From: Leucocoprinus leucothites
Lineage: Eukaryota > Basidiomycota > Agaricomycetes > Agaricales > Agaricaceae
Direction: 5' to 3'
Length of the DNA: 64,000 nt
Assembly (NCBI GenBank): GCA_013368445.1
Contig: JAACJO010000020.1
Location: forward strand, 186,001-250,000
A model generated the notes under the pieces. The model saw only the letters and a program-made list of their open reading frames with translations, did no database searches and was not told the DNA's origin. The position numbers and the translations under genes were made by a program. This document shows, piece after piece, positions 49,787-64,000 of this stretch (position 1 is the first letter of the stretch; every line of letters begins with the position of its first letter).

Positions 49787-49809
49787 CTTCAGACTCCCCT
49801 TACAGCATG
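49787..49809 (-). other. H10 scrap between H8 and gypsy-3
   Basis: 23 bases: the 13-base duplication left by H8 (49787-49799), then the half-LINE knuckle sequence running into the gypsy-3 TSD GCATG (49805-49809). Confidence 0.8.
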
Positions 49810-50473
49810 TGTTATGTATATTGATTATATCTAGCATTTGTTCCATCTATAACACGAAGTCGATATTAGCTTTACTTAAGTAATATCGCAATTATGTTTC
49901 CTTCTTATTTGTTCTTGTATTTTCTCGTTTGTTTTGACTCGTTTACTTTGTCTGATTATGACTCGTTATGACTTGTTTGGTTTTATTTGTATTTTGATGA
50001 CATGTGATTGTTAAATATAGCAGCGCTATATTTGGACTTATCTTGTGATCGATCAGATGATCAAAGAAGAACTTCTTTAGAAGAACTTCTAAAGCTTCTT
50101 TGACAGATCGCGTCTTATATAGTTTAATTAGCGTTAAGGAAGCTGTACGCTTCTCTTCTTTCATTAGAAGCCCTTAGCCCTAGTTAATAATAGATACCTA
50201 CTTGTATCGTATATAAGTCGTCGACATCTACCAAGGAGAAACATCGTTTCTACTTGGTTAGGTGGAGACTCAATACGAGCCTTTATCTATACAAAGTCGA
50301 ATTGAACTTAAGCTCTAAGATCTCAATTACTAAAGTCTTAAACTCTATAATCGCCGTATTATAACTCTGACTTAGTAAACGACTTTGTCGCTTACCGAGA
50401 AGGAGTCCCCTTTGATAAGATCAACTCGATACTTATCGCGCCAGCTTAGGACCGGGCCGGCGTCACTATAACA
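49810..50473 (+). repeat. Gypsy-3 5' LTR
   Basis: 664 bases, TGTTATGTATA...CACTATAACA. TATATAAG at 50210-50217 is the probable core promoter. The predicted RNA start at about 50243 coincides with the sequence complementary to the primer site. Confidence 0.97.
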
Positions 50474-50475
50474 TT

Positions 50476-50488
50476 AAGTAGAAACGAT
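50476..50488 (+). promoter_or_regulatory. Gypsy-3 self-primer binding site
   Basis: AAGTAGAAACGAT, two bases after the LTR, is the exact 13-base reverse complement of ATCGTTTCTACTT (50243-50255), about 30 bases downstream of the TATA box. This fits Tf1-type self-priming by the RNA 5' end. Confidence 0.75.
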
Positions 50489-50742
50489 CCTTCTCTGTTA
50501 GCACAGAGCCGTTACTTTGCCCAGTAACCCAACAACGTTGCAAACACTGTCGATTTGGGTTATCGCGGTTATCGCACAAGCTGTCCCAAAACTATTGTGC
50601 ATAACAACGAAGAGAGGGTCGACACACATTGCCAACTAGTGGATTAGTTGAGGATCACTCTTATTGATCTGAGCGAATACCCACGCTCTTAAAACATTTG
50701 GAGGCTTGTGAGAGCTAAGGTCGTTGTACCTGAATCTCAAAT

Positions 50743-50844
50743 AAGATACCAGACCCGAGGGTAGATACTCGGAAGGGAGAAATTTGCCAGAAAAGTTTGG
50801 CATATCTCTGAAGAATACCAGACCCGAGGGTAAATACTCGGAAG
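50743..50844 (+). promoter_or_regulatory. Duplicated hairpin in the gypsy-3 leader
   Basis: Two copies of GATACCAGACCCGAGGGTAG..ATACTCGGAAG (50743-50775 and 50813-50844), each able to form a CCGAG/CTCGG stem. They are followed by three GACTATAA repeats (about 50872, 50894, 50916). Probably an RNA structure for packaging or translation; the role is unproven. Confidence 0.5.
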
Positions 50845-51040
50845 ACAGTTTATCTGTTGAAAGTCTTAAGAGACTATAAATACACAGTCCTAGTGACTAT
50901 AAGGTGAGTCCATAGCGACTATAAACTAATTTTCCAACCACGGCAGAATCAAACTGCAAGTGTGATAATTGTCTTAAGGACAATTTACCATTTAAGACCA
51001 TACCAGGTGTCTCTATAGGCACCCATAAACATAGTCCACA

Positions 51041-53263
51041 ACGGACCCAGCAGAGTTTGCAAGACAAGTTGAAATCTTCGCAAGAAGAGAATTCCCAGAA
51101 GAATCCTACAGTACCTACTACAGTGAAACCCGAAGAACAAGGTTCTACAGAAGTAAAGGATCAGGAAGATTTTATTACATCAAAGAACACGAAGGGAAAG
51201 TTGCCTACGTCCCAATCAAGAAAGAACAAGAAGGAGTCCTTGAAGCTGAATACGCAGCAGTTGGTCACAAGCAACTTCACAGAACTGTCAAACAACAAAT
51301 TGAAAAAGGAGCTGGTCTTGAAGAACTTCGAGACGTTACCGAAGAACAGTACATTGAAGAAGCAAAAAGAAGACAAACTCCATTTCCAGAAACCCCTGCA
51401 GAATCTAGCAGGACCATCGAACCAGAACCAACCATTGACATTACCCCAAGAACTGAAGACACCTCACAAGACAATCATTCAGAGCCCAGAATTGACACTC
51501 CAAGTTCAGAAGAATCTGAATTTGACGAAGAAGACGAAGAAGAAGACGAAGAAGGAACAGATAGTGGAGAAAGAAGCCAACAAGAATCTGAAGGAAATCG
51601 AACAGAAGAGGAAGCAGAAGCACTCGCAAGGGCAATCGACAATCTCAAACTTAAATCCCCAGAGAAACCCAGACTCGATAGACCCCCTTCTTACTCCTCG
51701 AGCCCAGCCTTTGGACATAGCCCAAGGTTCCTCAGTCCCATTACGAACCCTATCCCCTTTAGCTTTACCAATTCCCCCACCGGTATTGCCAGTACCAGTA
51801 CCTTACCAACAACCAATCCCAACATTACTACAGCCAGTACCACCATCACCGTACCCACTAACACCCAAACAAAAGGGAAAGCAAAGGCAGTTGTCACCAA
51901 CACAGGAGGTTCTTCAAATCGAAGAAGTCCCACACCGCCACCACCAAATCCTCAAGGAGGACCACCAAGTCCCGGAGGTAATCCGCCTGGAGGACCAGGA
52001 GGACCAGGAGGACCAGGAGGACCAGGAGGAGGACCACCAAATCCTAATCCAAACCCCCCAAACCCAATGGCACAACCTCAAGCAGGATTCCAGCTTAAGT
52101 ACCCAAAGCCCAACAGGTTTGATGGCAACCCAAGCTATTACAGACCATGGATGGCCGAAGTCGAACTCTACTTCGACTCATATGGTGTCACAGATGACCA
52201 ATCAAGAGTCAACTACACCCTTGGATTACTCGATGGAGCTGCCAAGTTATGGCAACAGGATTACAGACTTAGTCAAGCAACTGCAGCTACCCAAGCAGGA
52301 TACACCCCACACACCTTCGATCAGTTCAAGAATGCGCTCGAACAGTCATTCGCTCCAACACAACAGAGCTTTGAGGCTGAAAGAGAGCTCCGCTATTATA
52401 GACAACGAAACAAATACATCGAAGAATACATCGCCAATTTTTCCGTCCTCGCCTCACGTGCAGGACTTACTGACAGCACTTCTCTCCGATCCTACTTCGC
52501 CGAAGGACTTGACAACGACGTCAGATTCGAAGCAATCCGAGCTGACCCCCAAACCCTCGCAGAATGGAAAACAGCTGCAAGACAGGCATACAAAGTTGTC
52601 CAAGAGCAAAAGAGATACCGCATTGGAAATTCTAATCCAGGATCTTCAAATAGATCAAGAAAGACCAAAAAAAATAGTAGACAACACGGATCCCAACCAC
52701 GATATAATGACGTCTATAGTCAACCCCTATCTAGACCCAGACGATCCGAGTGGGACATGGATATCGACAGAATATCAAGAGGAATATACCGATTATCAAT
52801 CAAAGATGATCGGGAAGCAGACGACGGAGGTATATACGAACTTGGCGCAGAGGATGATGATAATCCTGAAGAGGAGGAGAGTGAAGGAGAAGACATCAAT
52901 CAAACGTACAATGAAGGACCAAGCAACACAGACAGAGATGTCTATGGGTCACTATACTCCCACATCATCAATAACGTTCTCACCGACGAACAAAGAATTG
53001 CACTCAAGAGAGGAGAATGCTTCTTCTGCCACAAGAAAGGACATTTCGCTAAATCTTGTCCGGCAAGGAAGGTTTGGTTTAAGTCAAGAGGAAAGACAAA
53101 CATGGGATCAAAGCAGACGCAGAAGTCCCAGTCCAAACCGAAACAAGGGAATCGTAGACCTTTCAAGCCTAAAAGGAAAGATCCAGACGCCATGGTTTAC
53201 GAAATAGAACAAGCTAGTGATGAAGACGACCCGTTTCAAGAATACTCAAACGAAAATTTTTAA
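51041..53263 (+). CDS. Gypsy-3 Gag, apparently started at ACG
   Basis: The Gag frame is stop-free from 51035 to the TAA at 53261-53263, yet its first ATG is at 52067. The only well-placed near-cognate start is ACG at 51041 with A at -3 and G at +4, giving about 740 residues. N-terminal domain (about 51041-51400: GRFYYIKEHEGKVAYVPIKK), acidic spacer (EEDEEEDEE), Pro-rich region with GGP repeats (51960-52035), then the capsid-like part after M52067 (FDGNPSYYRPWMAEVELYF) and a CCHC knuckle CFFCHKKGHFAKSC (53018-53059). Starting at 52067 would give 398 residues. Gag assembles the particle. The extension looks like protein by composition, but its translation is inference. Confidence 0.7.
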   Translation, partial: TDPAEFARQVEIFARREFPEESYSTYYSETRRTRFYRSKGSGRFYYIKEHEGKVAYVPIKKEQEGVLEAEYAAVGHKQLHRTVKQQIEKGAGLEELRDVTEEQYIEEAKRRQTPFPETPAESSRTIEPEPTIDITPRTEDTSQDNHSEPRIDTPSSEESEFDEEDEEEDEEGTDSGERSQQESEGNRTEEEAEALARAIDNLKLKSPEKPRLDRPPSYSSSPAFGHSPRFLSPITNPIPFSFTNSPTGIASTSTLPTTNPNITTASTTITVPTNTQTKGKAKAVVTNTGGSSNRRSPTPPPPNPQGGPPSPGGNPPGGPGGPGGPGGPGGGPPNPNPNPPNPMAQPQAGFQLKYPKPNRFDGNPSYYRPWMAEVELYFDSYGVTDDQSRVNYTLGLLDGAAKLWQQDYRLSQATAATQAGYTPHTFDQFKNALEQSFAPTQQSFEAERELRYYRQRNKYIEEYIANFSVLASRAGLTDSTSLRSYFAEGLDNDVRFEAIRADPQTLAEWKTAARQAYKVVQEQKRYRIGNSNPGSSNRSRKTKKNSRQHGSQPRYNDVYSQPLSRPRRSEWDMDIDRISRGIYRLSIKDDREADDGGIYELGAEDDDNPEEEESEGEDINQTYNEGPSNTDRDVYGSLYSHIINNVLTDEQRIALKRGECFFCHKKGHFAKSCPARKVWFKSRGKTNMGSKQTQKSQSKPKQGNRRPFKPKRKDPDAMVYEIEQASDEDDPFQEYSNENF
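53254..53263 (+). promoter_or_regulatory. Programmed -1 frameshift site before the gag stop
   Basis: The gag frame reads A AAT TTT TAA, a canonical X XXY YYZ slippery heptamer (53254-53260) touching the stop codon. Slipping back one base enters the pol frame as TTA AGT ACT, which is then open without interruption to 56670. No strong downstream hairpin was seen by eye. Confidence 0.65.
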
Positions 53264-56200
53264 GTACTCACGAAGATCAGATAGACATCATCAATCTTCA
53301 ATCAAACAAAGGATTAACAGTACATGTACCAATATTGCTCCATACAACTAGAGCAAAACACAATCTACAAGCACTACTAGACTCAGGAGCTAGTGGAGAA
53401 TTTATCGACCCACAACTAGTCGATACCTACAACTTGCCAAAATTCAAGATGAAAAAGGCAATCAAAATCCGTAACGCCGATGGAACACAAAACCTATCAG
53501 GAAGTTGTACTCACTATACAAAATTAAAAATAGAAGTGAACAACAAAATTATGACGATCTCACCAAGAATAGTCAAACTTGGATCAAACCAACTATTCTT
53601 AGGAATCACATGGTTAAAGAGATTCAATCCCGACGTTGATTGGCAGAAACTGTCATTACGTTGGCGAGATGAAAATTCTCATACAATCAAATTAACCAAA
53701 GCGAAAACGGATTCCATCAATCAGTTGTATTATGAAATCAATGTGAAATCTAACACATCACAACAACTTCACAACTCGGCTACTAAACCTAAAAAGGAAT
53801 CAGACCCTGTGAAAGCCATACCTAAGAAATTTCATCAGTTTCTCAAAGTCTTCAACAAAGATGAATCTGAGAAATTACCACCTAGACGTCCTTGGGATCA
53901 TAAAATCGAGACTATACCTGAATTTGAACCCAAACGAATGCCAGTTTATCACCTGACACCTCAGGAAAGAACTGAACTTGACAAGTTTATTTCCGAAAAT
54001 CTACGAAAGGGATATATTCGGAAATCCAAATCACCAATGGCCTCTTCTTTCTTCTTTGTAGGAAAGAAAGGAGGAGACTTACGTCCATGCCAAGATTATC
54101 GATTCCTTAACAAGAATACAATAAAAAATGCTCACCCAATACCGAGCATATCACGAATCATGGATAAACTCAAAGGATCTAATTGGTTCACCAAGTTAGA
54201 TGTCCGACTAGGATATAATAATGTCCGAATCCATGAAGGACATGAATGGAAAGCGGCATTCCGCACTCCAAATGGGTTATATGAACCCACAGTCATGTTC
54301 TTTGGAATGACAAATTCCCCTGCTACTTTCCAATCCATGATGGATCACATCTTTAAAGACCTTACTGAGAAAGGCGGGGTCATTATTTACATGGATGACA
54401 TCCTTATCCATGCAAAAACAAAAGAACAACTCGAAAGACTTACTAAACAAGTCTTGAAGATTCTACAACAGAACGAGTTGTATTTAAAGACTGAGAAATG
54501 CGAATTCGAGAAGCAACGCCTAGAGTACCTCGGAGTTATCATAACTCCTGACTCTATCGAGATGGACCCCATTAAACTTAAGGGAATACAGGATTGGCCT
54601 GTACCCAAGTCTGTCCGAAATATCCGACAATTCATTGGATTCTGCAACTTCTATCGCAAATTCATTCACAACTTCTCAGCTATCGCACAACCACTTAACG
54701 CATTACTTCGCAAAACAACGAAATTTGAATGGAACTCAGAAGCACAGAAAAGTTTTGAGAAGCTCAAGGAACAATTCCTTAAGCAACCTATACTTCAAAT
54801 AGTTGACGAATCAAAGCCATTCGAAATCGAATGTGATGCTTCCGCATTTGCTACTGGTGCAGTACTACTCCAAAGAGATTCAAATGGAGATAAGCACCCT
54901 GTGGCTTATTATTCACAAACCCTCAACCCTGCGGAACGAAACTATCATGTGTCTGACCAAGAATTCCTTGCTATTATTAGAGCACTAAAGGAATGGCGAC
55001 ACTACCTTGAAGGATCAGCACACCCTATCATCATATGGTCTGATCACGAGAATCTCACCAGATGGCGAGAACCACAACAATTAAATCGAAGACAAGCTAG
55101 ATGGATGCTATATATGACACGCTTCCATTACTCCATAAAGCACTTAGCTGGCAACAAAAATACTCTTGCTGATGCATTGAGTAGAAGACCAGACCTAGTC
55201 CCAGATGGAAAGGATAACGAAGATCTAGTTGCGATACCATCAGAAAAATTCATTAACTTCCTTTCTGAGGAAATTAAAGAAGAAATTAAAAATAAACAAA
55301 AGAAGATCAACCTATCTGAAAGATTTACAGAAGATGATGGCATTTATAAATATCAGGGAAGACATGTGATACCTGAAGATGCCGAACTAAAAAGAAGACT
55401 TCTACAACGTGTACATGATCACGAGACATCAGGACACCCAGGAACAGCTGAAACGTTCCGTAAACTATCTAAATTAGTTTACTGGCCTGGAATGAACACA
55501 TATGTTCAAAACTACGTGAAAGGATGCCCTATTTGTCAACAATACAAAATCAACTGTCATCCAGTTAAACCACCAATGCAACCAATTAAAGGCCCTTCTT
55601 CCACAAGGCCCTTTTCCCAAATATCCATGGATCTTATCACAGATCTACCACCTGACGATGGATATGATTGTATATTGTCCATAGTGGACCATGGACTTAC
55701 GAAAGGGATAATCCTAACTCCAACAAAGAAGACAGTAAATGCTGATGGCATTGCTGAAATTCTTATTGACAAAGTATTTTCGAAATACGGAACACCCAAC
55801 AAAATAATCTCAGATCGAGATCCACGATTTGCTGCTAAATCAATGCAAAAACTATACGAAAAACTCAATATTACCCCAGCCCTGTCTACAGCATACCATC
55901 CACAGACAGACGGAACTACCGAAAGGTACAACCAAGAAATCGAGTTTTACTTAGCAGTTTACACATCACAAAACCCAACCATATGGAAACGAGCACTTCC
56001 AATGATTGAATTTGTACACAATACGAAATCCCATTCTGGAAGAAAACACTCACCATACAAATTAATCCTAGGATATAACCCACAAGCGTTTATCTCAGAC
56101 ATAGAGACAGACACACCTTCTATCAATGAGAAGTCTCTATTCTTGGAACAAGTCCGAGAAGCAGCTTTAGAGGCACATGAACGAACACGTCTCATGATGG

Positions 56201-56670
56201 CTCAAAGAAAGAACCAACCATGGACACCATTCAAAGTAGGAGACCGAGTTTGGTTAGATAACCGAAATCTCCCTTTACCCTATGCTTCTAAGAAGCTTAA
56301 CCAAAGAAGAGAAGGTCCATTTACTATTATTAGAAAGACCTCTCCAGTCAACTACGAACTCAAACTACCACAAAAATGGAAGATTCACAACAAGTTTCAT
56401 GCTTCACTTCTCATGCCAGTAACTGAGAATGACGTTTATGGTAAACACAACCCTAAACCACCACCTGTCCTAGTCTCAGGAGAAGAACAATATGAAGTCG
56501 AAGCAGTCCTAAACCATAGAACTCGCAGACTACGTTCTGGAACAAAAATAGAATACCTAATTCGTTGGAAAGGATATGGACCAACTGAAGACTCATGGGA
56601 ACCAGAGAAAAATCTTGAAAATTCAAAAGAAATAATTCAAGAGTATAAAAACCAACACAATCTCTCTTAA
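53260..56670 (+). CDS. Gypsy-3 Pol: protease, RT, RNase H, integrase, chromodomain
   Basis: Open from the frameshift site; the first ATG is at 53335 (numbering from it, 1111 residues). Protease DSGASGEFID (17-26); RT with PMASSFFFVGKKGGDLRPC and YMDD at 352-355; RNase H with D501 (ECDASAFATGAVL) and DHENLTRW; integrase zinc finger (HDHETSGHPGT...CPICQQ, about 696-740) and core D766, D827, E863 (35 residues between the last two, as required); chromodomain about 1050-1108 (YEVEAVLNHR, EYLIRWKGYGPTEDSWEP), which in relatives steers insertion to marked chromatin. All catalytic residues are present, so the enzyme set should be functional. Confidence 0.95.
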   Translation, partial: LSTHEDQIDIINLQSNKGLTVHVPILLHTTRAKHNLQALLDSGASGEFIDPQLVDTYNLPKFKMKKAIKIRNADGTQNLSGSCTHYTKLKIEVNNKIMTISPRIVKLGSNQLFLGITWLKRFNPDVDWQKLSLRWRDENSHTIKLTKAKTDSINQLYYEINVKSNTSQQLHNSATKPKKESDPVKAIPKKFHQFLKVFNKDESEKLPPRRPWDHKIETIPEFEPKRMPVYHLTPQERTELDKFISENLRKGYIRKSKSPMASSFFFVGKKGGDLRPCQDYRFLNKNTIKNAHPIPSISRIMDKLKGSNWFTKLDVRLGYNNVRIHEGHEWKAAFRTPNGLYEPTVMFFGMTNSPATFQSMMDHIFKDLTEKGGVIIYMDDILIHAKTKEQLERLTKQVLKILQQNELYLKTEKCEFEKQRLEYLGVIITPDSIEMDPIKLKGIQDWPVPKSVRNIRQFIGFCNFYRKFIHNFSAIAQPLNALLRKTTKFEWNSEAQKSFEKLKEQFLKQPILQIVDESKPFEIECDASAFATGAVLLQRDSNGDKHPVAYYSQTLNPAERNYHVSDQEFLAIIRALKEWRHYLEGSAHPIIIWSDHENLTRWREPQQLNRRQARWMLYMTRFHYSIKHLAGNKNTLADALSRRPDLVPDGKDNEDLVAIPSEKFINFLSEEIKEEIKNKQKKINLSERFTEDDGIYKYQGRHVIPEDAELKRRLLQRVHDHETSGHPGTAETFRKLSKLVYWPGMNTYVQNYVKGCPICQQYKINCHPVKPPMQPIKGPSSTRPFSQISMDLITDLPPDDGYDCILSIVDHGLTKGIILTPTKKTVNADGIAEILIDKVFSKYGTPNKIISDRDPRFAAKSMQKLYEKLNITPALSTAYHPQTDGTTERYNQEIEFYLAVYTSQNPTIWKRALPMIEFVHNTKSHSGRKHSPYKLILGYNPQAFISDIETDTPSINEKSLFLEQVREAALEAHERTRLMMAQRKNQPWTPFKVGDRVWLDNRNLPLPYASKKLNQRREGPFTIIRKTSPVNYELKLPQKWKIHNKFHASLLMPVTENDVYGKHNPKPPPVLVSGEEQYEVEAVLNHRTRRLRSGTKIEYLIRWKGYGPTEDSWEPEKNLENSKEIIQEYKNQHNLS

Positions 56671-56685
56671 CATTCCCCAGCTTCA

Positions 56686-58035
56686 ATGACTACTTCAGAA
56701 GTCAGTGAACAACCAACAGTACCAGTCTTTGGAACTATTATCTGCGAATCGCCCTCACCTATTACCCCTCCTACTACACCGACCAACACCATCAACGATG
56801 CGAACAAGGTCGAAGAAAGTCCTGGTCTTGCCTCATCGCAAGAACAAGGCACCAAATCCCCTGCCGGAGATAGTGCAGGCGGAGACACTAGCGGTGAAAA
56901 CTCTTCACCCTATAAAGAGAATGCCACCCTACAACGAGCATTTCTTCGAGAACAGACAGCCGTTGACTTTCTGTCCGCCTACGGCAGCAATCCTAGACTC
57001 ACTTCATATGTCTACAACATCGGGAATCGGATTGATGCTCTCGCTTCTGCAAGAAGTGAATACAAGCGTCTCCAGGAAGAAATGGACTTCCATCTTAGTA
57101 ACCTGGCACGCCATATCCCTAGGGGTCCCTATACTCAGAACATCGTCCGACGCATCCAACGCACCGACCCGGACGGAGATTACTTCGCTACGCTCAAGCG
57201 TCAACAAGCTCCAGAGCGACGTGCACAGGATTCTGAGCGCGCCTCAGCTGATGACGAAGGAAAAACTTCCCCACCTAGCGTCAAACCTCAACAACGTCAT
57301 GATGTGGCTACACACAATGCCATATTACCGAATACACCCCCTCCAACGCCTACTAACGAGCCTCCTCGAAATACCAATCGAGACGCGACTCGCCCTGGAC
57401 GTACTAGTCAAACCTGCGACATATGTCACGGAATGGGTCATATCAAGACGCTTTGCCCGGGATATCATTGCACCTGGTGCGACACTTTCGCCCCCGGCCA
57501 TTTCACCAAGTATTGTTCCCGAAATCCTTATAAAGGAATTGCTCGACGGGATCTACCCCCAGTCGCCCTGGCAGCACTTTCGATTACCGAAGGAGTCGAT
57601 GCCGCCAAGGCTCTTGCTCTGCAGTCCATCTCCGGATCTGCCAGAATACAGCCCCGACAGTCCGGTGTACCAACCGGCAATCACGGCGCCCCCGTCACCG
57701 ATGCCGTCGGACTTCGATCCGAACGACATAATCCAACATCCACGGCCGTTAACACCACCTCCCTCGGCCCAACCTACAACCCTACTTTTATGCCGCGACG
57801 AGGTTGTAAACCTGCACCACGAGGAAGACAGTATGGTCGTCTCCAGACCTCAGTCCGTTCCTCCCATCCAAACCATCGAGGACGCAGTCCGAACGGACGT
57901 CCCCATCACGGTCGAACTTCTCGCATCTATGAAGGAGAACGCCCCCTTACACCCCCATACGAAGATGGCAATTACGAATCTCATTACGATGATGAAGCCA
58001 ACTTCAACATAGATGGTGAAGGTAATTTACCTTAG
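56686..58035 (+). CDS. Gypsy-3 third ORF: double zinc-knuckle protein
   Basis: 449 residues, in the same frame as pol and starting 15 bases after its TAA, so readthrough or restart after termination is possible. An acidic/Pro-rich N-terminus is followed by a helical, charged region (about residues 85-165: FLREQTAVDFLSAYGSNPRL, ARSEYKRLQEEMDFHLSNLA), then CX2CX4HX4C (CDICHGMGHIKTLC, about 245-258) and CX2CX6HX4C (CTWCDTFAPGHFTKYC), an Arg/Gly/Pro-rich stretch and an acidic Tyr-rich tail (YEDGNYESHYDDE). Gypsy-1 keeps the same knuckle pair and tail, so selection has preserved it. It is not envelope-like: no signal peptide or membrane segment is visible. Role unknown; probably nucleic-acid binding. 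Confidence 0.8.
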   Translation: MTTSEVSEQPTVPVFGTIICESPSPITPPTTPTNTINDANKVEESPGLASSQEQGTKSPAGDSAGGDTSGENSSPYKENATLQRAFLREQTAVDFLSAYGSNPRLTSYVYNIGNRIDALASARSEYKRLQEEMDFHLSNLARHIPRGPYTQNIVRRIQRTDPDGDYFATLKRQQAPERRAQDSERASADDEGKTSPPSVKPQQRHDVATHNAILPNTPPPTPTNEPPRNTNRDATRPGRTSQTCDICHGMGHIKTLCPGYHCTWCDTFAPGHFTKYCSRNPYKGIARRDLPPVALAALSITEGVDAAKALALQSISGSARIQPRQSGVPTGNHGAPVTDAVGLRSERHNPTSTAVNTTSLGPTYNPTFMPRRGCKPAPRGRQYGRLQTSVRSSHPNHRGRSPNGRPHHGRTSRIYEGERPLTPPYEDGNYESHYDDEANFNIDGEGNLP

Positions 58036-58085: not shown

Positions 58086-58749
58086 TGTTATGTATATTGA
58101 TTATATCTAGCATTTGTTCCATCTATAACACGAAGTCGATATTAGCTTTACTTAAGTAATATCGCAATTATGTTTCCTTCTTATTTGTTCTTGTATTTTC
58201 TCGTTTGTTTTGACTCGTTTACTTTGTCTGATTATGACTCGTTATGACTTGTTTGGTTTTATTTGTATTTTGATGACATGTGATTGTTAAATATAGCAGC
58301 GCTATATTTGGACTTATCTTGTGATCGATCAGATGATCAAAGAAGAACTTCTTTAGAAGAACTTCTAAAGCTTCTTTGACAGATCGCGTCTTATATAGTT
58401 TAATTAGCGTTAAGGAAGCTGTACGCTTCTCTTCTTTCATTAGAAGCCCTTAGCCCTAGTTAATAATAGATACCTACTTGTATCGTATATAAGTCGTCGA
58501 CATCTACCAAGGAGAAACATCGTTTCTACTTGGTTAGGTGGAGACTCAATACGAGCCTTTATCTATACAAAGTCGAATTGAACTTAAGCTCTAAGATCTC
58601 AATTACTAAAGTCTTAAACTCTATAATCGCCGTATTATAACTCTGACTTAGTAAACGACTTTGTCGCTTACCGAGAAGGAGTCCCCTTTGATAAGATCAA
58701 CTCGATACTTATCGCGCCAGCTTAGGACCGGGCCGGCGTCACTATAACA
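58086..58749 (+). repeat. Gypsy-3 3' LTR
   Basis: 664 bases, identical by eye to the 5' LTR. Preceded by the purine tract GGAAAGGGATAA and followed by the TSD GCATG. Confidence 0.97.
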
Positions 58750-60432
58750 GCATGACAATGTGGAGTGATGATTCTCACTACGGTGAGGACCACCACACTG
58801 GGAACACCTGAGCATATGGTTGCAGCAGGTGGGGGTAGAGTGACCGAAGCACCAGCAGTGCTGGCACTGGGGGACACTGGGGTGGGCACAGGCAGGCTTG
58901 ATGACAGCCTGCATACCATTGAAGTCAAGGTACTTGTTGAGGAGCTTCTTGGTGCCAGCTCCTGACTGAGAGTCCCATAGGTCAAACTAAACAGTAGCAG
59001 TGTCAGCCTTGGGGGAGTTGCATATGATGCACACAGATGAAATGTCAGTGAAAGTGTCCTTAAACGGAGACAATTGCATGTGGTTGGTGATCTGGACTGG
59101 TGTGATATGGACACCATTCACATGGAAGCAGAGTCTGAGGGCATGGTGGAGGTGTACAGTGCAATGGTGCTGTATACCTTGGTGATATTCTCAATGTACA
59201 AAGAGGACTTGGCACATGAGAGGGCATCATTGAGAAGTTGCATAGCCTTGTAGTGAAGATAAGTGATCTCACTGGCATCACCAGTGAAATCAAGGAACAA
59301 TTGGTGGTGGGTGGGCCCAGCAGTGGTCATGTGTGACTTCTTGGCAGAGCCAGCAGTGGCAGTGGCAGCCTGATGCATCACGGCAACATGATCAGGGTCA
59401 AGGGAGGGGTTTGCCTGTGCCAGCTTGATAAGTGACACAGGTGGCACCAAAGTGCTGGAACAAGCAGCTTCTGCGAACAAGTGCTGACAAGGCACTGGAG
59501 CAGAAGTAGGGATGGGCATCTTCATGGGTGCTTGAGGGGGGCCACTAGTGTGCACCTTAGGGGGTGCTTGCTTAGGTGGTATGGGGGGATGGGCCAGGGC
59601 AGGCTGTGGAGCCTTGGGCATTTGCTTGGGTGCCTTGGGGGAGCCCATGTCGATGTCATGTGGTTCCACTTTGTCAGCAGATCCATGGGTCACCTTGTGG
59701 GTGATGCGCATATCTTTAGGGGAGGCTTCCAGCTCATTGAACTGAGCAAAGCCCTGCATGAAGGAGCAAAAGGTGGTCCAGCCTCAGCTGGCCCACTATT
59801 CACCTATGGAAATGTATGCACTCCCATGCCTGCTCATCTCGAATTTGTAGACAGCACTAGCAAGATAGCTAGCACATGCCTTGGCATAGTCCTCGTTGAG
59901 GAGGGAATCATCAGGGAGTTCATGCATGAAGCATGAGAACTTTTTGAGGCCATTGAAAGCCTGCTTGGCTGCAGCATCATCTCCAGGCACAGTCCCAGTG
60001 GAGGACAACAGGGTGGATGGTGCAATCAGGGGAGGAGTGGGGACTGGGTAGTATGTGGTACCAGTAGTGATGAGAGGGGCCTTGGGACCAAAGGTCACTA
60101 GAGGCTGAGTAGTAGGCACCAGTGATGGAACATCAGTGGGCACCGAGGGAAGGGGTGAGGGTGACTGAAAGTTGGCCCTTATGGTAGCCTTGAAATCCAC
60201 CATTATGTAGACCAGCTGGGTGGAGGTGGAGGGCCTGGGGGCCTCTTCAATTATATCAAGCTTGTCATTGCTAGACACGACGTCAGAGTCGAGGTCTATG
60301 TTCACCATCTCATGACTAATAGCTTTAGACTTTTGCCTACCCATGTTTTGCTAGTGTAGACAATGTAGTATTGTACTCAAACTAAGACACCAACTCAAGA
60401 GATGGTGGTGGTAAGAGGACAAGAAGGGATGT
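58750..60432 (-). pseudogene. Half-LINE H10, 5' part with ORF1
   Basis: The 5' terminus is at 60400-60432 (rc CATCCCTTCTTGTCCTCTTA). ORF1 starts at 60344 (MGRQKSKAISHEMVNIDLDS), open to 59796. 59759-59118 gives FAQFNELEASPKDMRITHKV, DIDMGSPKAPKQMPKAPQPA, FLDFTGDASEITYLHYKAM. An internal deletion near 59118 removes part of the core. 59000-58755 holds WDSQSGAGTKK-type sequence and the first knuckles, then gypsy-3. It is closest to H5 (type II). Confidence 0.75.
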
Positions 60433-62541: not shown

Positions 62542-63204
62542 TGTTATGTATATTGATTATATCTAGCATTTGTTCCATCTATAATACGAAGTCGATATTA
62601 GCTTTACTTAAGTAATATCGCAATTATGTTTCTTCTTATTTGTTCTTGTATTTTCTCATTAGTTTTGACTTGTTTAGTTTTGTTTGGTTACGACTCGTTA
62701 TGACTTGTTTGGTTTTGTTTGTATTTTGATGACATGTGATTGTTAAATATAGCTACGCTATATTTGGACTTACCTTGTGATCGATCAAATGATCAAAGAA
62801 GAACTTCTTTAGAAGAACTTCTAAAGCTTCTTTGACAGATTGCATCTTATATAGTTTAATTAGCGTTAAGGAAGCTGTACACTTCTCTTCTTTCATTAGA
62901 AGCCCTTAGCCCTAGTTAATAATAGATACCGACTTGTATCATATATAAGTCGTCGACATCTACCAAGGAGAAACATCGTTTCTACTTGGTTAGGTGGAGA
63001 CTCAATACGAGCCTTTATCTATACAAAGTCGAATTGAACTTAAGCTCTAAGATCTCAATTACTAAAGTCTTAACTCTATAATCGCCGTATTATAACTCTG
63101 ACTTAGTAAACGACTTTGTCGCTTACCGAGAAGGAGTCCCCTTTGATAAGATCAACTCGATACTTATCGCGCCAGCTTAGGACCGGGCCGGCGTCACTAT
63201 AACA
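62542..63204 (+). repeat. Solo LTR of the gypsy-3 family
   Basis: 663 bases, very close to the gypsy-3 LTR, with the perfect TSD GTCAT (62537-62541, 63205-63209). It differs at a few sites, several at CpG, and is older than gypsy-3 but younger than the copy at 35429. Confidence 0.97.
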
Positions 63205-64000
63205 GTCATGGACCAAGCCCAGTCTGGTGAATATGGTGGGCCTGGCTGGCTCATGCATGTTCTGTTGAACATGCTATGTGCAGGTATTTATTTGGACCTT
63301 TTACTGATGTAATGCTCAATGAATATATGTATATGAGAACAAAATTGAGCAAGACATGTCTTAGGTGTATCCAAGGTACTTGTGCAGATCAGCTTAGAGC
63401 TACCCCATTGTCATAGCATGCCTAATATAGGTATGTTAATTAGGCCTAGAAATAAGTTGCAACTGTTGATGATGTATCCACCAATGCAACTGAGATATTT
63501 TTTTTTTTCACTCAGAAGTTGAAGAAGCACATTGATGAAAACTCTTCCTTCAAATCTATCAAGGACTGGTTCATTGAATCAATGAATTGTCTCCTTTAGC
63601 TCAGTAAACATGCCAGTTGGAGGTGGCAGCTCACCCAGCACGGGAACTGTGGGCCTGCTTCCACTGCCCCTCCTGGGCCACTCCCAATCCAATCATTTGT
63701 CAGTGAGCGCATAATCTAAATCAAGTATAGGTTCCATAGATGCTGCTGAATCTATGCACGAATCAAATTCTATAATATATTCGTGGCTCTCTTTCGAGAT
63801 TAAGCCTTATTGTGTGGTTGAATTAAATTCGTCACCATGTGCTAAGCTAATGGAATATTCTGTCCCTATGGCTGATTCTATGCCGAGGGACTAGTCTTAG
63901 ATAGATTTTGAATCCCAGATAGGTTTGGTGGTGACTAACAGATTAATAAACAAGGATTGAATGGCTCCTCAGCATCGATTCTAGATCTGGACAATTGTTT
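63205..64000. other. No gene seen at the right edge
   Basis: No frame, repeat end or RNA gene could be supported on either strand. A T-rich run at 63496-63508 is the only notable feature. Confidence 0.45.

Follow-up and report, generated by a model that had tools for sequence, protein, structure and literature searches.

A Ty3/Gypsy chromovirus of Leucocoprinus leucothites with a coding Gag extension in a long AUG-free stretch and a predicted ACG start

The element and its AUG-free stretch

The genome of the basidiomycete Leucocoprinus leucothites (GenBank assembly GCA_013368445.1) was searched over 47 Mb in 110 contigs and contains a Ty3/Gypsy chromovirus in which the gag and pol frames are both open. 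The copy described here lies in a 64,000-nt stretch of contig JAACJO010000020.1 (positions 186,001 to 250,000 of the forward strand; part of C20 in the set searched), called the window below, and all coordinates are those of the window. The Gag of this element carries an N-terminal extension that evolves as protein-coding sequence ahead of the first AUG; long Gag likely starts at an ACG, because the predicted RNA has no AUG before position 52067. Of the 62 gag matches in the genome, 59 places were taken and 57 sequences, the window included, were aligned; L048 and L052, whose leaders are rearranged, were left out. The features of the gag region are as follows.

50210..50215, + strand: TATA-like box, 33 nt before the RNA start
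50243..50255, + strand: predicted RNA 5' end and self-primer, perfect complement of 50476-50488
50476..50488, + strand: primer-binding site, complement of the RNA 5' end
50058..52066, + strand: AUG desert, no ATG in any forward frame
50922..50924, + strand: TAA closing the exon-1 frame upstream, present in 55 of the 57 aligned sequences
50940..50942, + strand: ACG, proposed start of long Gag (aaccACGGca), A at -3 and G at +4
50940..51006, + strand: proposed coding exon 1, (M)AESNCKCDNCLKDNLPFKTIP..., from the substitution pattern
51007..51053, + strand: proposed short intron (CCAG/GTGTCT...CAGCAG/AG), 47 nt, or 44 nt via the acceptor at 51050
51041..51043, + strand: ACG proposed earlier as the start, in the Gag frame in unspliced RNA and intronic in spliced RNA
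51054..53263, + strand: Gag (second exon), stop codon included, from frame and domain evidence
50925..53207, + strand: open frame overlapping Gag (+1 of Gag), constraint confined to exon 1
52067..53263, + strand: predicted short Gag from the first AUG (cccaATGG), 398 codons
52094..52612, + strand: Ty3 capsid domain PF19259

The ATG at 50057 is followed by the next one only at 52067, a gap of 2010 nt; the runner-up gap in the 64 kb is five times shorter (419 nt). An earlier annotation made from the letters of the DNA, hereafter the sequence-only reading, had claimed that no ATG occurs in any frame from the predicted RNA start at 50243 to 52067, where about 28 would be expected by chance. A count confirms the absence in 50243-52066; the depletion holds, and the figure of 28 is slightly high (25.7 expected from base composition, 15.6 from dinucleotide composition). 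The depletion is sharpest in the untranslated part, 50473-51040, with 0 observed and 8.2 expected from dinucleotides. The lack of ATG in 51041-52066 owes largely to zero Met codons and to codon use, synonymous-codon shuffles of this part giving 1.3 ATG on average. As had been reported, the Gag frame opens at 51035; it runs to 53263. There are 16 ACGs in 50243-52064, of which just two, 50940 and 51041, have A or G at -3 together with G at +4; near-cognate codons of the types ATC, ATT, ATA, TTG, CTG and GTG in the same context are also present, the list having 18 entries. The sequence-only reading had described the context of ACG 51041 correctly (A at -3, G at +4) and had placed the start of long Gag there; ACG 50940 is not mentioned in it.

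The RNA start at 50243, also part of that reading, is backed by a self-priming match: ATCGTTTCTACTT (50243-50255) is the exact reverse complement of 50476-50488 (13/13 nt), a site located 2 nt past the LTR (long terminal repeat). Among the 57 aligned sequences, 13 such pairs are found in 33, 12 in 14 and 9 to 11 in 9, while one is not comparable. This complementarity between the RNA 5' end and the primer-binding site points to self-priming and resembles the arrangement of the Tf1/sushi group. The U3 region carries ATGs, all upstream of the TATA box, and since the match places the start at 50243, the genomic RNA would begin downstream of every one of them.

Constraint in the Gag extension and in a short upstream exon

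The aligned sequences were divided by age. The young set comprises 30 copies including the window, the other 29 being 98.0-99.4% identical to it over 50243-53200 with gaps excluded; the young and intermediate copies together number 35, the older ones 22, and the module-A set includes 52 sequences, the window among them. ATG avoidance, which had been expected to extend to other family members, is seen in 21 of the 30 young copies, which have no ATG in 50243-52066. All ATG-creating single substitutions in young copies (8/8) are ACG-to-ATG changes at CpG, and the ninth ATG-bearing young copy, L014, has its ATG at 50244, beside the RNA end, by a change of another kind. Outside the young set, the remaining 27 sequences of the alignment contain 224 ATGs in 50243-52066, and because 160 of them stand where the window has ACG, the desert is taken as a trait of the young lineage that decay removes. 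Over 50243-53263, CpG change (C to T and G to A, ACG becoming ATG) is frequent in these 27 sequences. An excess of singletons among ATG-creating changes was considered as a proof of counter-selection and was rejected, the ratio of shared to single changes (3/5) being no different from that of the others (90/130); this test is blind because CpG change recurs. At two other gag loci of this genome, L069 and L077, whose N-termini resemble each other, the start is an ordinary ATG and there is no desert (longest ATG gaps 276 and 307 nt), and L068, a member of the same family with a nested insertion, has an ATG-free stretch of 1580 nt ending within the inserted sequence.

The order of parts in Gag is an N-terminal domain of about 120 residues, an acidic spacer, GGP repeats, the capsid (Ty3-type PF19259, 39.2 bits, cut-off 29.1) and a zinc-knuckle-like motif below the Pfam cut-off. 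A Pfam profile search listed no family for the N-terminal domain, and its predicted structure in the window has low confidence (mean pLDDT, the predicted local distance difference test score, 56.6; 69.8 for the whole of the related protein P0043). To assess selection, each distinct difference among the 30 young copies was counted, and the counts were set against those from random placement of mutations of the same kinds. The leader, 50243-50939, is neutral, with a replacement/synonymous count of 58/33 (56.7/31.5 expected). The corresponding counts are 30/35 (43.8/19.5 expected) for Gag 51044-51460, 27/32 (38.8/19.8) for 51461-52066 and 50/72 (75.7/40.6) for the part past AUG 52067; constraint on the extension is of about the same strength as behind the AUG, where coding is not in dispute. 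As purifying selection on it matches that on the capsid part, the extension is translated, and it precedes the Gag AUG, no AUG being available to start it. The low ratio of replacement to synonymous change (dN/dS) that had been predicted from 51041 onwards amounts to about 0.4, and 28 of the 30 young copies are free of stops within 51041-52066, in line with the same reading. The extension measures 342 codons from 51041, or 360 from 50940 if spliced. In the 52 module-A sequences, 10 of the 12 shared non-CpG substitutions in 51054-51130 are synonymous in the Gag frame, where 3.9 are expected.

A second constrained segment, in another frame, begins at ACG 50940. Across the 35 young and intermediate copies, the differences in 50943-51006 comprise 6 synonymous and 0 replacement changes (P = 0.0002), and variable sites are found at 1 of the 43 first and second codon positions and at 5 of the 21 third positions. 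In the module-A set, the shared non-CpG substitutions of exon 1 are synonymous in its own frame in 6 of 6 cases (2.5 expected, P = 0.002), as compared to 1/6 and 0/6 in the other two frames, and 135 control combinations of 64-nt segment and frame in the leader peak at 0.67 synonymous. Among the 22 older copies, singletons in exon 1 are neutral (2 synonymous, 10 replacement; 3.2 synonymous expected). The module-A copies contain no indels in 50940-51150, except for L059, and 78 indel cells in each of 50700-50800 and 50800-50939. The exon-1 frame is closed at most six codons upstream of 50940 in 55 of the 57 sequences; in the other two, L010 and L033, an inserted base shifts the closing stop (TGA) to 11 codons upstream, with no ATG between. 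In the window, ACG 50940 is the sole near-cognate codon between the upstream stop and the constrained part, and it is kept in 29 of the 30 young copies, the remaining one having ATG.

The candidate intron between these constrained segments would bring the exon-1 frame into the Gag frame at either length, 44 or 47 nt. The stretch itself varies like the leader: among the 35 copies, 7 of 47 sites in 51007-51053 are variable (0.149), and 69 of 467 in the leader (0.148). Its ends are conserved, GT being kept in 56 of the 57 sequences and one or both of the in-frame AGs (51050, 51053) in all 57; the arrangement is thus one of GT-AG ends, a consistent frame and an unconstrained stretch between constrained exons. 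The public protein P0003, which begins MAESICKCDNCLKDNLPFKTRPEFARKEF, corresponds to the related copy L070 minus exactly 47 nt, not 44, and the DNA of L070 retains these 47 nt; because their removal gives P0003 exactly, the deposited gene model splices there. Short introns are plausible in this genome: the inter-exon gaps of the host chaperonin gene are roughly 45-60 nt, profile overlap allowed for, and host intron candidates measure 41-77 nt, 47 and 48 included, although what the candidate list says is limited by the design of its filter, which required 38-84 nt and a branch motif. A -1 frameshift in place of the intron was considered and discarded, no X XXY YYZ heptamer being found in 51001-51060.

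The start of long Gag

Initiation of long Gag at a codon other than AUG is highly probable from these patterns. The start at ACG 50940 followed by splicing, as the main route, is given a probability of about 0.5. Ribosomes scanning from 50243 would initiate part of the time at ACG 50940, with its A at -3 and G at +4; removal of the 47 nt would join exon 1 to the Gag frame and yield long Gag. The remaining ribosomes would pass through the AUG-free stretch, there being no AUG in the window between the first start and the next start codon, and would begin at AUG 52067, the product being a short Gag without the N-terminal domain. AUG 52067 likely makes this short form, whose existence the sequence-only reading had plausibly predicted; the ATG is present in 57/57 aligned sequences and Met-Ala stands at the same place in the public proteins P0005 and P0006. 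In unspliced, genomic RNA, ACG 51041 could still yield long Gag. A splice form joining an upstream ATG had been named as a possible objection to a non-AUG start; the predicted transcript has no ATG upstream, and a splice form joining the upstream ACG is likely instead.

A number of observations weigh against the start at ACG 50940 with splicing. The evidence from exon 1 consists of six substitutions, and the end of the segment was picked post hoc: the segment taken at first, 50943-51034, had 6 synonymous against 2 replacement differences when the 35 copies were compared (P = 0.008), and 12 synonymous, 20 replacement and 1 stop in all 57 sequences (P = 0.12). The part 50473-50600 is also free of indels, so their lack is not specific to coding sequence. 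The donor of the candidate intron, GTGTCT, is weak (C at +5) and 51007-51053 contains no CTNAY branch motif; the candidate thus departs from the fungal splice consensus of a GTRNGT donor and a CTRAY branch. A better-looking donor, GTGAGT at 50904, together with CTAAT and the CAG at 50944-50946, would excise ACG 50940. The gene model behind P0003 may be wholly computed, and no intronless genomic copies were found at up to 3 mismatches, a search in which strongly decayed ones could be missed. AUG 52067 has no purine at -3, the absence of ATG inside Gag is weak when taken alone (P = 0.19 for zero in the shuffles), and non-CpG ATG gains in young leaders (0, 2.4 expected, P = 0.08) are suggestive of avoidance at most. 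As a separate observation, 50904-50946 looks like a textbook 43-nt intron, and the frame to be joined is closed by a TAA at 50900.

Long Gag might instead be made with no splicing, from ACG 51041 in unspliced RNA, with short Gag from AUG 52067, which is possible and in our judgement rather unlikely. ACG 51041 lies in the Gag frame, whereas the better-supported ACG 50940 is in frame after splicing alone, and it is an ACG in 29 of the 30 young copies. A swapped domain also begins near it: L061 and L064-L067 share 90-94% identity with the window over 50243-51040 and 51461-53200 but 58-60% over 51041-51460, so that their N-terminal domain is related yet divergent, as if exchanged, and all five have ATG at 51041. 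These five ATGs do not prove an AUG start, since other ACG sites decay to ATG similarly often, and they could be CpG decay of an ACG. A start at 51041 leaves the constraint of another frame in 50943-51006 unexplained; the codon is situated within the 47 nt that are as variable as the leader and have the ends of an intron, and it is ACA in L036, whose Gag frame is intact. Of the earlier proposal, ACG initiation is retained and 51041 as its site is not, the constraint beginning at 50940 and in a different frame; ACG 51041 is probably not the main start. The idea that it is a former AUG in the main subfamily was rejected, as older copies have ATG in 15 cases, ACG in 5, ACA in 5 and ATA in 2, like other ACG sites. 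The public protein P0001 matches copy L044 and starts at 51041, where ACG became ATG.

If ACG 50940 opened a separate protein and Gag began at ACG 51041, exon 1 would be the first part of the overlapping frame, which stays open for 755 codons to 53207, is uninterrupted by stops in 26 of the 30 young copies and contains 1 stop where dicodon-preserving shuffles of Gag give 5.8 (0 of 200 at or below). The shortage is modest, because pol (60 stops, 65.6 in the shuffles, P = 0.025) and the open reading frame downstream of pol (P = 0.05) are low in the same test. Past exon 1 no amino-acid constraint was found that would make the frame a conserved protein: in 51054-51130, 1 of the 12 shared substitutions is synonymous in it (3.5 expected), replacement changes are more numerous in it than in Gag, and stop-creating changes number 4 against 7.6 given the constraint on Gag, which is not significant (P = 0.09). 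A separate protein is accordingly held to be improbable. An AUG supplied from outside the plain transcript, by an upstream promoter with a longer splice, an AUG at a junction, trans-splicing or C-to-U editing of the ACG, has likewise little probability; it could draw on the U3 ATGs upstream of the TATA box and on the strong-looking donor GTGAGT at 50904, conserved in 55 of the 57 sequences, but the self-priming match sets the start of genomic RNA downstream of those ATGs and the exon-1 frame is closed within 6 or, in two sequences, 11 codons upstream. Very improbable is the account in which AUG 52067, the first AUG, with its Met-Ala kept in P0005 and P0006, is the sole start and 51041-52066 is an untranslated leader open by chance: these 342 codons are under capsid-like purifying selection while the leader upstream is neutral, and P0006, which comes from another species, has an N-terminal extension as well.

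Related Gags, known systems and the remainder of the element

Three protein searches (13 matches, 27 matches and the best 120 of 179 matches) gave 144 proteins related to this Gag, and the figures in this paragraph hold among the matches listed. For the comparison 63 were used, those in which at least 130 residues precede the Gly-rich spacer; proteins with a capsid motif within residues 1 to 50 and five encoded by this genome were excluded. Met makes up 0.39% of the extension and 2.66% of the capsid in the 63 Gags, and 0.40% vs 2.59% in the 38 non-redundant ones (P = 2e-20), in which I, L, V, F, W, Y and C are found in the extension at 0.63 to 1.49 of the capsid level. The extension is entirely free of Met in 31 of the 38, and a Met is located 10-90 residues ahead of the Gly-rich spacer in 33. 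In 26 of these 33, the residue after the first such Met is small, and in 14 the residue ahead of it is; among capsid Mets, 41 of 160 have a small residue after them. This suggests initiator Mets, with the reservation that the local Thr-rich sequence may inflate the pattern. P0041 begins with Val (VASGS) where its relative P0033 begins with Met (MASGS), apparently a GUG start as opposed to AUG, as read from the protein sequences alone. In P0007, P0034, P0040, P0043 and P0050, a motif IRNSP, IRNTP or IRNAP follows the acidic spacer and precedes the internal Met.

The element shares with chromoviruses and with the self-priming Ty3/Gypsy elements of presumably the Tf1-sushi group the chromodomain after integrase, the self-complementary RNA 5' end and separate gag and pol, and differs from them in its AUG-free Gag extension. 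Non-AUG Gag starts and leaky scanning through AUG-free sequence are already known in viruses, each parallel covering one element of the mechanism proposed here. The glyco-Gag of murine leukemia virus starts at a CUG upstream of the Gag AUG, with ribosome density on the extension at 6.7% of gag in the sections available of PMC5778647, and its extension has 88 residues according to part of PMC5120145. The likeness lies in a near-cognate start in a favourable context and an extended Gag beside the AUG Gag, predicted in the present case; the differences are an extension of 342 or 360 codons instead of 88, an ACG instead of a CUG, and a fungal element instead of a mouse retrovirus. In rice tungro bacilliform virus, the first open reading frame starts at AUU and about 900 nt are AUG-free, so that ribosomes reach later AUGs (PMC5902531, in part). 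The non-AUG first start and the long AUG-free stretch are common to both systems; in the virus, as far as that text goes, ribosomes shunt past a structured leader and make separate proteins, whereas two forms of one protein are predicted here and the AUG-free stretch is 1.8 kb. In BARE1, alternative splicing of a short intron yields an RNA for Gag production alongside the genomic RNA (PMC3735527, in part); that intron, as described there, has 104 nt, lies just past the gag coding domain and ends Gag, while the present candidate is N-terminal and would supply the start. The literature searched, with few subscription papers covered, contained no fungal LTR retrotransposon with a non-AUG Gag start among the matches listed.

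LTR elements have long posed the question of how one RNA is shared between particle making and packaging; a switch consisting of start codon and splice would, if real, be a concrete answer to it. The element would then be a fungal LTR retrotransposon making a long structural protein with no AUG start whatever, which would explain why gene finders miss or mis-model such Gag domains (P0001 is an example), and the proposed small first exon of Gag has probably been overlooked so far. The Met-poor extension and the Met ahead of the spacer in 33 of the 38 related Gags predict two Gag forms generally. Perhaps a large mushroom-type Ty3 group makes long Gag from a weak start, ACG here and apparently GUG in P0041, and short Gag from a conserved internal AUG, with AUG purged between them; the weak intron would be the switch in this element, spliced RNA giving long Gag, and in genomic RNA the ribosomes starting at 50940 would run through 755 stop-free codons and spare it nonsense-mediated decay. 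So broad a scheme is put forward as speculation and is unlikely to hold in full.

The remaining features of the element are listed below.

49805-49809 and 58750-58754: target duplication GCATG, 5 bp, flanking both LTRs
49810..50473, + strand: 5' LTR, 664 nt, identical to the 3' LTR over its full length
53254..53260, + strand: AAATTTT at the gag stop, likely -1 frameshift site
53224..56670, + strand: pol frame with protease, reverse transcriptase, RNase H, integrase and chromodomain
58086..58749, + strand: 3' LTR, identical to the 5' LTR over 664 nt

The identity of the two LTRs indicates that the window copy inserted recently. A Pfam profile search of 53224-56670 gave PF00078, PF17917, PF17921 and PF00385 above the cut-off and PF00665 below its own; reverse transcriptase, RNase H and integrase are of Ty3 type and the chromodomain follows integrase, as in chromoviruses. 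AAATTTT at the gag stop would likely serve a -1 frameshift into pol. A search of viral contigs for relatives found none. After one TAA, a third open reading frame of 454 codons (56671-58035) continues in the same frame as pol; it is rich in Cys and His (CDICHGMGHIKTLCPGYHCTWC), no Pfam family passed the cut-off for it in the profile search, and a second frame is open over almost the whole of it. An additional LTR copy of the same family is located at 62542-63205, with 87-100% identity depending on the segment.

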